Source of the DNA: a virus
Length of the DNA stretch: 21,241 nt
Virus record (IMG/VR): IMGVR_UViG_3300010354_000824
Location: 1 to 21,241 of that record
Direction: 5' to 3' (one strand)
Below, piece after piece: positions 4,412 to 19,055 of the stretch. Position 1 is the first letter of the stretch, and each line of letters begins with the position of its first letter. The notes beneath the pieces are model-generated. The model had not been told where the DNA came from, did not search any database, and was given only the letters and a program-made list of their open reading frames with translations. The position numbers and the translations under genes were made by a program.

Positions 4412-5305
4412 TCATCGGAAACGCGGGTCGGGGTACTGGCCTCGGTCGATGTAGCCCTGCCTGTCGCCGTTGTACGCCCTGATGGCGGCGAAGTCGACCT
4501 GGCCGGCGGAGTCGACGAGCCCGAGCGTCTCTGCGCGCTCGCGGCTGACGGGGAACAGGCTCGCTCGGCAATTGCGCCCGCATGGGGGCACGCAGTCCTG
4601 ACGAACGATCTCCTCCATCGTGTTGATGTAGCCGCTGACCTGCCAATGGTAGCCGTCGTCGGGGAAGTCGCCTGACGGGTTGCCGCGCGTCCTGCGGTCC
4701 ATGATCTCCCTGATCTCCCAGAGCGGGAACCGACGCCTCGGAGCCGGCGCGTCGGGACGGATCTCCGCATCGGGCGCGGAGATTCCAGCCTCGGCGATGC
4801 CGACGTTGTACGAACGGCGTGCCTCATTGAGCGCAGGCAGCACCGACCGCCTCGGGATCGTCCTGACGAGCGCCTGCATGTCCGCATCCTGCCCGAGGAT
4901 CTCGAGCCCAGTGCGCGCCTGCGCGATCGGGATGTCGAACCGTGCCGCGCGCCTCGAGATCGCCACAGGGACGCCTCGGGGTATCTGGCGCATGTTGGCG
5001 TCGTCTTCGTCGAAGAAGAGCAGGTAGATCGCGGCGACCATGTCCTCGCCGTGACGCGCCGATGCCGCCGCGTACCTCGGCTCGACCTCCTGCATCGCGC
5101 GCATGGTGAGCCTGCGTGACGCCTCGAGGAAGCGGGCGATGTCGCCACCGCCCGCCCCCTCGGGGAGATACAGCCTGCTTCCGCTGTCCCATGCGGATGC
5201 AAGCGCACCGCCGACCTCGCGCGCCATGCCGTCCCAGCGACGGCGCGCAAGCCCGCGCTTCCATGCGGCATCCATCATGCGCTCGATGGCGGACATCGAG
5301 CTCAC
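4412..5305 (-). CDS. Phage head morphogenesis protein (Mu gpF / SPP1 gp7-like)
   Basis: I chose the GTG that overlaps the portal stop (GTGA), because GGAGG lies seven bases upstream; it gives 297 residues. An ATG three codons later is possible. The C-terminal part contains a His (YHWQVSGYI) and then CVPPCGRNCRASL near residues 243-255, similar to the H...NCRC-type C-terminal motif of the phage head morphogenesis family. It directly follows the portal gene, as gpF-type minor head proteins do, and it should be present in a few copies in the prohead or be ejected with DNA. The N-terminal half is helical and Arg-rich. The family assignment is moderate. Confidence 0.65.
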   Translation of the reverse strand: MSSMSAIERMMDAAWKRGLARRRWDGMAREVGGALASAWDSGSRLYLPEGAGGGDIARFLEASRRLTMRAMQEVEPRYAAASARHGEDMVAAIYLLFFDEDDANMRQIPRGVPVAISRRAARFDIPIAQARTGLEILGQDADMQALVRTIPRRSVLPALNEARRSYNVGIAEAGISAPDAEIRPDAPAPRRRFPLWEIREIMDRRTRGNPSGDFPDDGYHWQVSGYINTMEEIVRQDCVPPCGRNCRASLFPVSRERAETLGLVDSAGQVDFAAIRAYNGDRQGYIDRGQYPDPRFR

Positions 5306-7611
5306 TGGTCGTCCTCCTCCTGGGAGTCGAAGTCGAACGGACCCTTGAGCCCGTCGACCTTGCCGTTCTTCGTCTTCTCGGCGTCGAGGCGGGCGACGAT
5401 GCGCTTCGCCCACGTCCATCCTGCGTCACCGCCCCAGCCGTTCCACGCCTGCCAGCCCTTGCCCTGCTCGTCCCACGTCTCGCCCTTCTTGTCCGACTGG
5501 TGGCGGTCGAAGTACCGCACCATGCGGCGGACGGTCTCCTCGGACAGGCGCTTCCTGTTCGCGAGGTCGCGGGCGCGCGCGAGTCCGACTGCGGTCATGC
5601 CGCGCTCGGACTCAGGCTTCGTCTCGCGGACATCGAGGGCACGGCGCGCGTTCGACGCGACCTTCTCGGGCGGAAGGTATCCCTCCGCCTCGTCGAACGT
5701 CTCCTTCTCGCCGACCTTCTCCTCCTCGCGGTCGAAGGTATGCGTGTCGCCCTTGACGACCTCGCCCTCGCGCTCGAGCATCGAGTCTCGGGCGGCGATG
5801 CGGACCGCCTGCTCGACGCTCAAGCCCTGCCTGACGAGGTCGCCGGCACGGTCCTTGCGGGATTCCGTGTCGAGAGCCTTCGGCGGACGGCCATGCTCGC
5901 TCTTCGATTCGCCGCACATCGAGTAGGCGATGGCCCACGCCTGGTCGTCCGAGTATCCCTCGTCGACCAGCACGCGGTGCTTCTCGATGACGCAGTCGCC
6001 GACGCCCTTCTCGTTCCTCTTCTTCGCCTTCTTCGTCGGGCTCTTTCGGGTCTCGGGATAGTCGTGCTTGCCTGCCGCGCAGTTGTTCGCATCGGTGAAT
6101 CCGCCGAACCCGTTGCCGCAGTTCCCCTTCGGCTTCTTGCGTCGACGGCGCACCGCCTCGCGGTTCAGCTCGCCTGGAGTCATCCTCGAGAACACGTCCT
6201 TCGCGTTCAGGATCGGGCCGTCGTCGTCGCCGCCATCAGGCGACAGGTCGGGCAAGATGTCCTTGACCTTGCCGGTGAGCACGGGCTCGTCCACGTCGGG
6301 GATCGCGAGCCCGAGCATCTTGCGGGTCTCCGCCTCGCTGACCGTGCCGCCGAGCTCGTTGACGAAGATGCGCACGGCCTCGAGCTTCTTCTCCATGTCG
6401 ACCGACTCGATCGAGAACTCGAAGCGCGGGTAGTCCTCCTGCGGACCGAAGTTCATGTCGACGATCTCGCGCACGAACTGGTGCGTGATCGTCTCGGCGA
6501 GGCCGTCCGCAACGAACTTCATCTGCCGCGTGAACGTCTTCGAGTGCTCCTTGCCGACGCTCGATCCGAGTCCCGTCGACACCGCCTCGCTCGTCGCGCT
6601 CTGGCCGACGATGAGCTCCTTGATGTTCTTGGCGAGCCACTCGGTCAGGTCGGCGAAGACCTGCGCGCGGGCCGCACCGGGCTCCTTGATCTCGATCTCG
6701 TAGTCCTTCTGGCCGGGGGTCGTGCGCGGGACGACAGCCGACACGTCGCCGACGAGGTTCCGCAGGATCGTCTCCATCTCCTCCTTGCCGCCCTTCTGCG
6801 CCATCGGGTAGTAGCCGACGCGGATGCCCTGCGCGTAGCGCTCGGCATACGTCGCCCAGTTCTGGAGCACGGCCTGCTTCAGGTTCCAGTACCACCAGAC
6901 CACGTCGCGAACGCCCTTGCCCATGTACGAGTACGCCGTCTCGTATGGATCGTCGAAGTCCGGCCCCTGCACCATGTAGCGATGCCAGAGCACCGCGCGG
7001 CGCTCGATGTCGGTGAAGAGGTGGACGCGGCTATCGAATCCCTGCTGGGTCTCGCCGCCCGTGCCGCCCATCTCGCCGTAGTAGCGCGGGCCGACCTTGA
7101 TGCCGGGAGTGCCGTCCTCATGGACGATGAGCACGTCGGGGTTGAACGGGATCCAGTCGACGGGAACGATCTCGCCGCGCTCGGTGCGCGAGTAGATCAC
7201 GTTCAGCGCGCTCGAGCCGTACCACACCGCGTCGAGGAGATGACGCACCATGTCGGCGAACCTCGGGAGCCGGCGGAGGATCTCGGCGACACGCTCCGCC
7301 ATCTCCTCCTGCATCGAATCCCTCGAGTCGAACGGCTTGACCTGCCACTCGAGCCCCGCGATCGACACCTGGAGCTGCGTGAGGGGACCCATGCAGTCGG
7401 GGTCGTTCCTCATCTGCTTCATCAGCTGCCGGTCCTTGCGGTACGACAGCGACGGATTGCGCAGGATCTTGGCGACGGACGCATAGAACGTCCGCTGCAT
7501 CTCGATCGGCATCGCGACGGGGACCATCATCTTCGACGGAAGATCGCCCTCGACCGCCTCGCTCGCCTTGCGCTTCCCACGACCACGACCCTTCTTCAGC
7601 ATCTCATCCAT
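5302..7611 (-). CDS. Portal protein, DUF935/Mu gp29-like, with long C-terminal extension
   Basis: The product is 769 residues, much longer than a usual ~450-520 residue portal. The start is the ATG overlapping the terL stop by eight bases, with TGGAGG at 7616-7621. Residues ~20-440 show the portal core: WQVKPFDS, a LLDAVWYGSSALNVIYS stretch, an HRYMVQG segment, and IVGQSATSEAVSTGLGSSVG near 335, which is a hallmark of gp29-type portals. After about residue 480 there is a Cys-containing module with CVIEKHRVLVDEGYSDDQA (~540) and then, from about 645 on, a domain with ARRALDVRE, GMTAVGLARARDLA and WGGDAGWTWAKR, which I recognise from various phage structural proteins. The portal core is firm; the job of the tail modules is unknown. 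Confidence 0.85.
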   Translation of the reverse strand: MDEMLKKGRGRGKRKASEAVEGDLPSKMMVPVAMPIEMQRTFYASVAKILRNPSLSYRKDRQLMKQMRNDPDCMGPLTQLQVSIAGLEWQVKPFDSRDSMQEEMAERVAEILRRLPRFADMVRHLLDAVWYGSSALNVIYSRTERGEIVPVDWIPFNPDVLIVHEDGTPGIKVGPRYYGEMGGTGGETQQGFDSRVHLFTDIERRAVLWHRYMVQGPDFDDPYETAYSYMGKGVRDVVWWYWNLKQAVLQNWATYAERYAQGIRVGYYPMAQKGGKEEMETILRNLVGDVSAVVPRTTPGQKDYEIEIKEPGAARAQVFADLTEWLAKNIKELIVGQSATSEAVSTGLGSSVGKEHSKTFTRQMKFVADGLAETITHQFVREIVDMNFGPQEDYPRFEFSIESVDMEKKLEAVRIFVNELGGTVSEAETRKMLGLAIPDVDEPVLTGKVKDILPDLSPDGGDDDGPILNAKDVFSRMTPGELNREAVRRRRKKPKGNCGNGFGGFTDANNCAAGKHDYPETRKSPTKKAKKRNEKGVGDCVIEKHRVLVDEGYSDDQAWAIAYSMCGESKSEHGRPPKALDTESRKDRAGDLVRQGLSVEQAVRIAARDSMLEREGEVVKGDTHTFDREEEKVGEKETFDEAEGYLPPEKVASNARRALDVRETKPESERGMTAVGLARARDLANRKRLSEETVRRMVRYFDRHQSDKKGETWDEQGKGWQAWNGWGGDAGWTWAKRIVARLDAEKTKNGKVDGLKGPFDFDSQEEDDQ

Positions 7612-17404: not shown

Positions 17405-17664
17405 TGGCAATCCTCCTTGATTCGTTGGCACGCATCCAATGCGACCTTCATCTCAGCCTTCGTCACTGTCACCGAGAACAGCGCCGTCCACCCCTCGCCG
17501 TCCCAACCCTCGATGATGAAGTCGGGAAGAGGGTGCATGGAGTCACTGTAGATGGTAAGCAGCGCGCGATACTTGCCCTCATGCTTCTTGACGAGCTTGA
17601 TCGCGTCATCGAAGAGGACGCACGGGACGACATCGGAGCACAGGTGGATGTCGATCGCGCTCAC
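17401..17664 (-). CDS. Hypothetical small protein
   Basis: The GTG start overlaps the upstream stop (GTGA); the product is 87 residues. It has mixed alpha/beta character (VSAIDIHLCSDVVPCVLFDD, YRALLTIYSD) and ends in an amphipathic helix, AEMKVALDACQRIKED. No family recognised. The gene is coupled on both sides within the replication operon. Confidence 0.6.
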   Translation of the reverse strand: MSAIDIHLCSDVVPCVLFDDAIKLVKKHEGKYRALLTIYSDSMHPLPDFIIEGWDGEGWTALFSVTVTKAEMKVALDACQRIKEDCQ

Positions 17665-17879
17665 TTGCGCACCGCCTTCCGCATCTCGTCCAGGGGAATG
17701 AGCCACTCGGTAGGGATGCAGAACACCCACGGCGAGTCGACGGTCAGACCGCCCTTCGTGACGGGCTCGACGCCGACGCACTTGCGTCCGGCAAGATCAA
17801 ACTCCTCGGAGGAAATCCGCACGCGGAAGTAGGCGATGTCGTTAGTCCGTGCATGTGCAGGGGATCGTGGCAGAGTCAT
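17661..17879 (-). CDS. Hypothetical small protein
   Basis: Two adjacent ATG codons (17882, 17879) could start it; the second is spaced six bases from GGAG. The 72-residue product includes a likely beta region (IAYFRVRISSEEFDLAGRKC) and ends in a short helix, DEMRKAVRK. It overlaps the 3' end of the PAPS-reductase-like gene by about 38 bases and shares GTGA coupling with the next gene. Function unknown. Confidence 0.55.
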   Translation of the reverse strand: MTLPRSPAHARTNDIAYFRVRISSEEFDLAGRKCVGVEPVTKGGLTVDSPWVFCIPTEWLIPLDEMRKAVRK

Positions 17880-18162
17880 CATCGTCTCCAAATAGACCTG
17901 GCTGGATTCTGACCTGATGCAGGATTTGCTCGTACTTTGGCCGGTCCTTGCGGAAAGTCCCGCCAATAGCGTTCTCCTGCTCGATCCACCATCTAGCCCG
18001 CTCAGGCTCCGCACTGATAACTCGATCCGTCATTGATCTAGACTTCAGGAAGCAAAGATCGCAGTTCCCGAAAGCTCGGTCGTCGTTCGGAAGCCGCAGG
18101 TCAAATGGCTGTTGCTTCCAGAAGGCAAGAACATCGTCGATCGTGTGTCCAGCCCTGCTCAT
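17842..18162 (-). CDS. C-terminal half of PAPS-reductase-like protein, after in-frame TGA
   Basis: This frame continues the reading frame of the preceding gene past a TGA at 18166-18168, with only one codon (CCG) between the TGA and its first ATG. The sequence, HTIDDVLAFWKQQPFDLRL, NCDLCFLKSRSM, WWIEQENAIGGTF and PCTCTD at the end, matches the C-terminal part of phage PAPS-reductase/PP-loop ATPase family proteins. The ATG has no visible ribosome site, so independent translation looks unlikely. The two halves together (163 + 107 residues) have the size of one family member. Interpretation: readthrough, an old nonsense mutation or a sequence error. Confidence 0.6.
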   Translation of the reverse strand: MSRAGHTIDDVLAFWKQQPFDLRLPNDDRAFGNCDLCFLKSRSMTDRVISAEPERARWWIEQENAIGGTFRKDRPKYEQILHQVRIQPGLFGDDDDSATIPCTCTD

Positions 18163-18165
18163 CGG

Positions 18166-18657
18166 TCAGTCGTAGTCGAGTCCATTCCGGACATCGCCCT
18201 GAACCCGATGCACTCGCCTCGGCTCGTCTGCGCGGAGACCGATGGCCATCGTCGCAGATTGGACGCCGATCGACTTGAGATATGCGGCGATCGCCCTGAC
18301 CTTGAGCTCCTCAGTGCAGAATCGCGCGATTGGATTCGGCAGATAGTTCTTCTTCTTGATGAGATCGGCGAATGGCTCGCCGTTGCGCGATGCGCTCGTG
18401 AAGTCGACGATGCGGAACGATGGATCCTGCCGGAACATCCTTTCGACCCAGACGATGTCAACGCCCCATCTCTCGGATATGTCCCGCACGAACTCGAGGG
18501 TAGCCTCGTGCTCCTTACCCGTGTTCGCAAAGCAGACGTGGCTCCCCGATGGAATGGATCCACCGAATGCATTGAGGATCATGCGAAGCATGAATCCGCT
18601 AGTCCTTCCACCGCTGAACGAGATCACGAACGGCTCATCAATCCTGTAATGATTCAT
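18166..18657 (-). CDS. N-terminal half of PAPS-reductase-like PP-loop ATPase
   Basis: The ATG chosen (MNHYRID) has GGGAGGG ten bases upstream, and the frame ends at TGA after 163 residues. The PP-loop SFSGGRTSGF (Ser15-Ser20) binds ATP in adenosine phosphosulfate and related N-type ATP-pyrophosphatases. CFANTGKEHEATLEFV, ASRNGEPFADLI, RFCTEELKV and AIGLRADEPRR follow in the family order. It is cut short in the region where the C-terminal FW..QPFDL part should follow, and that part is found in frame directly after the stop. The family handles sulfur or nucleotide chemistry; phage examples have no firm role. The gene is best treated as one interrupted gene. Confidence 0.75.
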   Translation of the reverse strand: MNHYRIDEPFVISFSGGRTSGFMLRMILNAFGGSIPSGSHVCFANTGKEHEATLEFVRDISERWGVDIVWVERMFRQDPSFRIVDFTSASRNGEPFADLIKKKNYLPNPIARFCTEELKVRAIAAYLKSIGVQSATMAIGLRADEPRRVHRVQGDVRNGLDYD

Positions 18658-18970
18658 TTTTCCAGACCCTCCCATCCTTGCAATTCGTCTGCCTTCCTTC
18701 AAGCAAAGATCGAGCGTAGTCGGCTGCAAGCGGTTCATTCTGTGCGTTGTCGATGATCCTGCGCATTCCCCTAGTCAGCATCGTCACCTCGCGTTCCGAG
18801 TCAACTAGAGCATTCCGCAGCCGCTCGATCTCGTCGGCGGCCTCGCGCATAATCGCATGACAATCATCAAACAACGCGGTTGCGGCACGGTCGGTTTCCA
18901 TGTCGCCAAACCGATTCTTTCGAAGGATGGTTGGACGAAGCCGCAGCCGCGTCACGATGTCAATACTCAT
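18638..18970 (-). CDS. Small helical phage protein
   Basis: The ATG (MSIDIVTRLRLRP) has GAGGAG six bases upstream and gives 110 residues. The DIVTRLR start and a later AADEIERLRNAL segment are typical of small, coiled-coil phage proteins found in early operons. It overlaps the microprotein upstream by 11 bases and the PAPS-like gene downstream by about 20. The function is unknown. Confidence 0.65.
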   Translation of the reverse strand: MSIDIVTRLRLRPTILRKNRFGDMETDRAATALFDDCHAIMREAADEIERLRNALVDSEREVTMLTRGMRRIIDNAQNEPLAADYARSLLEGRQTNCKDGRVWKNESLQD

Positions 18971-19055
18971 GGTCACTCCTCGGCAGCATGATGCACGACA
19001 TGATCCACGCGAACGCAAGGATCAGGAACATCTTCGCGACCAGTTCAAGATTCAT
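18960..19055 (-). CDS. 31-residue single-pass membrane microprotein
   Basis: An ATG with GGAG seven bases upstream starts a 31-codon frame: MNLELVAKMFLILAFAWIMS, then CIMLPRSDHEY. One hydrophobic stretch (residues 5-24) is long enough to cross a membrane, and the tail is charged. The frame overlaps the end of the upstream gene and the start of the downstream gene by 11 bases each, which is the compact coupling seen in this operon. It is too short for normal gene finders. Role unknown. Confidence 0.5.
   Translation of the reverse strand: MNLELVAKMFLILAFAWIMSCIMLPRSDHEY

Follow-up and report, generated by a model that had tools for sequence, protein, structure and literature searches.

Among phage proteins, the PP-loop family gathered under phrog_424 ('phosphoadenosine phosphosulfate reductase') and PF01507 is encoded by accessory genes, whose products have in common an SGGRTS motif and four invariant cysteines, and whose reading frame is uninterrupted in nearly all homologues. 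Phage homologues of phosphoadenosine phosphosulfate (PAPS) reductase have been put forward as meriting further investigation (PMC11437467). The PP-loop fold is also that of the assimilatory PAPS/APS reductases (CysH), characterized by a C-terminal catalytic Cys motif of the ECG[I/L]H type, and of LarE and NcsA, two cysteine-rich [4Fe-4S] sulfur transferases, while a weaker similarity links the family member described here to SspD and DndC, the sulfurtransferases of phosphorothioation.

The window analysed here, which is the whole stretch of 21,241 bases, carries on its minus strand a gene of this family that is cut by a stop codon (Table 1). The first-pass annotation had described two pieces of one family lying in the same frame, split by TGA at 18166-18168 and a single CCG codon; both the coordinates and the description are correct, the strand, which had been left unstated, being minus. 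The letters around the stop, read on the minus strand, are GAC TAC GAC TGA CCG ATG AGC AGG. A Shine-Dalgarno sequence, GGGAGG, precedes the start ATG at 18657, upstream of which a second in-frame ATG is located at 18738; directly before the ATG at 18162, by contrast, no Shine-Dalgarno-like sequence is present, which confirms the first-pass remark that this ATG lacks a ribosome site. The view that this is one gene interrupted in frame also holds, since in profile searches each part matches phrog_424 singly and the joined protein does so better (3.4e-52, residues 25-296).

Table 1. Features of the interrupted PAPS-like gene and its surroundings in the window.
Feature	Position	Strand	Remarks
Interrupted PP-loop/PAPS-reductase-family frame	18657→17842	minus	Cut by TGA; ends with TAA at 17842
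N-terminal part, 163 codons	18169..18657	minus	SGGRTS PP-loop motif, ADEPRR motif, invariant Cys114; PF01507 3.5e-8, phrog_424 1.2e-37
In-frame TGA, codon 164	18166..18168	minus	Cys codon (TGC or TGT) in 7/7 closest relatives
CCG codon between TGA and ATG	18163-18165	minus	
ATG three bases past TGA	18160..18162	minus	Matches the clade's usual Met (CPM); no Shine-Dalgarno site
C-terminal part, 106 codons and TAA	17842..18162	minus	NCDLCFLK, WW, FRKDRP and PCTCTD motifs; invariant Cys199, Cys202, Cys267; phrog_424 4.7e-9
Downstream small gene	17661..17882	minus	Starts inside 3' end of interrupted gene, overlap of about 40 bases; conserved in relatives, close to helicase and primase
Upstream small gene	18638..19018	minus	ADEIERLR motif; in L190 the counterpart adjoins the downstream gene, with no PAPS-like gene between
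Stretch to which sister phages L189/L190 show no long DNA match	17844..18941	minus	Matching DNA on both flanks; PAPS-like gene missing there

The joined protein resembles the phage PP-loop family in sequence, SGGRTS motif, length, the four invariant cysteines and its status as an accessory phage gene product, and differs from it by the in-frame TGA at codon 164. Its predicted structure forms one compact domain (mean pLDDT 93.6), whose fold resembles those of PP-loop sulfur enzymes (CysH, LarE and NcsA). The best matches in the PDB include CysH (6vpu) and APS reductase (2goy), but the TM-score to CysH is only about 0.4-0.5, the ECG[I/L]H-type motif is absent from the translation, and the protein scores 13.2 bits against a cut-off of 235 for the NCBIfam APS_reductase model. 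LarE and NcsA are matched with a TM-score of about 0.35-0.45 and about 15% identity. The similarity to SspD (PADLOC, 2.5e-12) and DndC (about 1e-3 to 1e-4) is weak, the score lies far under the NCBIfam DndC cut-off, and no ssp or dnd partner is found among the identified genes of the window. The four invariant cysteines of the phage family (C114, C199, C202 and C267), together with the fold similarity to LarE and NcsA, suggest that the family consists of putative iron-sulfur sulfurtransferases.

A match was found at 188 loci, a count that includes the window's own locus and in which some contigs appear twice, and a stop at codon 164 is found in the window only; a hunt for the same TGA in related phages, proposed on first pass, thus yielded none. 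The DNA context of the stop gave no match in an exact search of IMG/VR, and a nucleotide search among annotated phages was also negative. Alignment of the joined translation with close homologues, likewise proposed, supported a single gene: the closest clade, which comprises seven distinct members (L002/L139, L003/L136, L004/L132, L005/L008, L006/L130, L007/L107 and L131), is 58-70% identical to the window across the joined protein, and this range of identity (58-70%) extends along the entire length of the 107 open codons 3' of the TGA, which therefore do not match by chance. All seven carry a Cys codon at the aligned position (TGC in six, TGT in one), so a single transversion accounts for the TGA. 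This Cys is specific to the clade; in the rest of the family one of M, I, A, V, T or L usually stands at the position, which indicates that codon 164 is tolerant and does not specify a conserved active-site residue. In most of the clade a Met follows Cys-Pro; the ATG past the TGA corresponds to this residue, so it was inherited rather than newly formed as a start codon.

Regarding what the stop removes, an alignment of 66 sequences places three of the four invariant cysteines past it, together with the invariant residues P165, W180, N198, K205, W224, E228 and F235. In the predicted structure the stop falls just after the strand formed by residues 160-163, and the residues directly before it belong to a stretch of variable length among homologues. 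The part past the TGA is undecayed, with neither a second stop nor a frameshift; the family-invariant residues S13, S15-S20, C114, C199, C202 and C267 are all kept in the joined frame, and across the whole protein only 3 departures are seen at the 84 columns that reach a conservation of at least 90% among homologues. In addition, pN is far below pS both before and after the stop. The branch leading to the window measures 0.33 past the stop and 0.19 before it, a pattern that L005 and L131 also display.

The genomic surroundings provide further information. Two sister phages, L189 and L190, were found through the neighbouring helicase, which is 99% identical at the amino acid level, with flanking DNA 93.7-96.2% identical. 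The PAPS-like gene is absent from both at exactly the window position of the interrupted gene: the DNA match breaks off at 17843, a single base beyond the gene's end, and restarts at about 18942-18967. Within the gap L190 holds the counterpart of the small upstream gene only, and L189 this counterpart and another short stretch. The absence of the PAPS-like gene from such near-identical phages indicates that it is dispensable. This site (window 17843-18967; L189:7269-7795; L190:3141-3360) is one of gene exchange between the helicase and primase modules, with different content in three near-identical phages. In the more distant syntenic L191-L193 no PAPS-like gene was found within the stretch compared. 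The 67%-identical, syntenic L131/L194, which like the window carry a serine recombinase, RusA, primase and helicase, possess an intact copy at the same site, which overlaps the downstream gene in the same way, and L195 (7394-7639) retains a remnant in which a large in-frame deletion has removed residues about 49-236 and spared the 3' end. Absent, intact or reduced to a remnant, the gene therefore comes and goes in this phage group. Elsewhere in the window, positions 5302-7611 encode a portal protein of 769 residues with a long C-terminal extension that matches phrog_2859, a family of unknown function.

Broken copies also occur in other family members. An in-frame internal deletion is found in L140:5222-5752 (Pseudothauera rhizosphaerae) and in a matching viral contig (L187:5141-5671). 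Four separately named contigs, L169-L172, whose gene DNA is identical, carry an in-frame TAG where the conserved WW has its first Trp, beyond which the frame continues (about 10001-10831 in L169), and in L066 a TAA lies close to the end of the gene. These inactivations are independent and differ in location and in the stops involved, a pattern that sporadic loss, but not a programmed site, would be expected to leave. The 3' end of the PAPS-like gene contains the start of the downstream gene both in the window and in L131/L194; an overlap of this kind is also seen in L195, with a different downstream gene that apparently encodes a DNA cytosine methyltransferase. This overlap may be a reason for which remnants keep their 3' end.

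Taken together, these observations make it very probable that the TGA is a recent loss-of-function nonsense mutation in a phrog_424 PP-loop gene that is gained and lost as an accessory. A point mutation in this strain would have changed a Cys codon (TGC or TGT) to TGA, and translation would end at residue 163, leaving a product devoid of the C-terminal 40% and of three of the four invariant cysteines. Since these cysteines and other invariant residues are lost and the break falls in a compact domain, the truncated product is presumably inactive. The locus is in every respect like nonsense and deletion alleles of phage accessory genes: a single stop lies in an otherwise intact frame, one base away from TGC or TGT, the gene is missing from sister phages, and broken copies are known in the family. 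The lack of decay past the stop and the low pN relative to pS speak against a nonsense mutation, as does the base that follows the stop, TGA followed by C counting as a leaky context; the undecayed state implies either that the mutation arose recently in comparison with the split from known relatives, or that this part is still made. An error in the consensus or assembly, in which the population would have the Cys codon and the TGA would be a sequencing artefact or a minority allele, calls for one differing base only in a frame that is otherwise pristine, and the 21,241-base window is an assembled contig (an IMG/VR-type virus record). Assembled consensus sequences, however, seldom contain a lone substitution error, and the same kind of lesion, shared identically by the four contigs L169-L172, demonstrates that this family does harbour nonsense alleles; such an error is thus considered improbable, and we infer that the phage truly carries the mutation.

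Explanations in which the full frame is still expressed must account for a stop that no relative shares. A TGA-reassigned code is rejected, in agreement with the initial opinion that a general code change was unlikely, because TGA ends most genes of the window, including those for portal, terminase, primase and integrase, and the code is therefore standard. Programmed or tolerated readthrough, by which some ribosomes would insert a residue at UGA-C and produce the full-length enzyme at low expression, would be in keeping with the open and constrained downstream frame, with the C after the TGA, and with a position that admits C, M, I, A, V, T or L in the family and where a near-cognate residue might be accepted. 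It is nevertheless most improbable: RNA structure after the TGA is not significant against shuffles (z 1.00 to -1.21), a search of the window for tRNAs and suppressor tRNAs found none, so that a suppressor tRNA is rejected as well, and the gene is dispensable in the sister phages. Readthrough had been deemed possible on first pass, and a nonsense mutation or sequencing error equally plausible; the nonsense mutation is now clearly favoured, while readthrough loses ground to the uniqueness of the stop and the absence of the gene from sister phages. The pairing of UGA with Cys in all seven closest relatives, as in bacterial selenoproteins, could also evoke selenocysteine, to which we assign next to no likelihood and which is rejected. 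An Rfam search that included SECIS elements gave no match, the hairpin past the TGA does not surpass those of shuffles in strength, and a simple test for a bacterial SECIS is passed by 25% of all TGAs of the window but not by the one at 18166-18168. Furthermore, if a TGA arose in this gene by random mutation, a Cys codon would be its source in 23-33% of cases, which makes the Cys/UGA pairing weak evidence, and the Cys is confined to one clade.

A split enzyme, in which reinitiation at the ATG three bases past the TGA would generate two fragments that assemble into an active protein, could draw on the position of this ATG, on the length-variable stretch before the stop and on the intact downstream part. 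This, too, is highly doubtful, given that the ATG is the clade's inherited Met with no Shine-Dalgarno site, and that the break lies inside one compact domain; halves encoded as separate genes, rejected here, were found in none of the relatives collected. Readthrough and reinitiation are, even jointly, of low probability. It is correspondingly quite unlikely that the TGA is a working switch, by which low UGA-C readthrough or reinitiation at the ATG would give a little full-length or two-piece enzyme and thus a reduced gene dose. If true, readthrough would represent a rare case of dose control for a phage sulfur-chemistry enzyme.

The nonsense mutation that we favour carries a caution, in that an in-frame TGA opposite a Cys can mimic recoding or selenocysteine. 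As for the biology of these phages, the sister genomes show the PAPS-like gene to be an accessory one that has been gained, lost and broken repeatedly.
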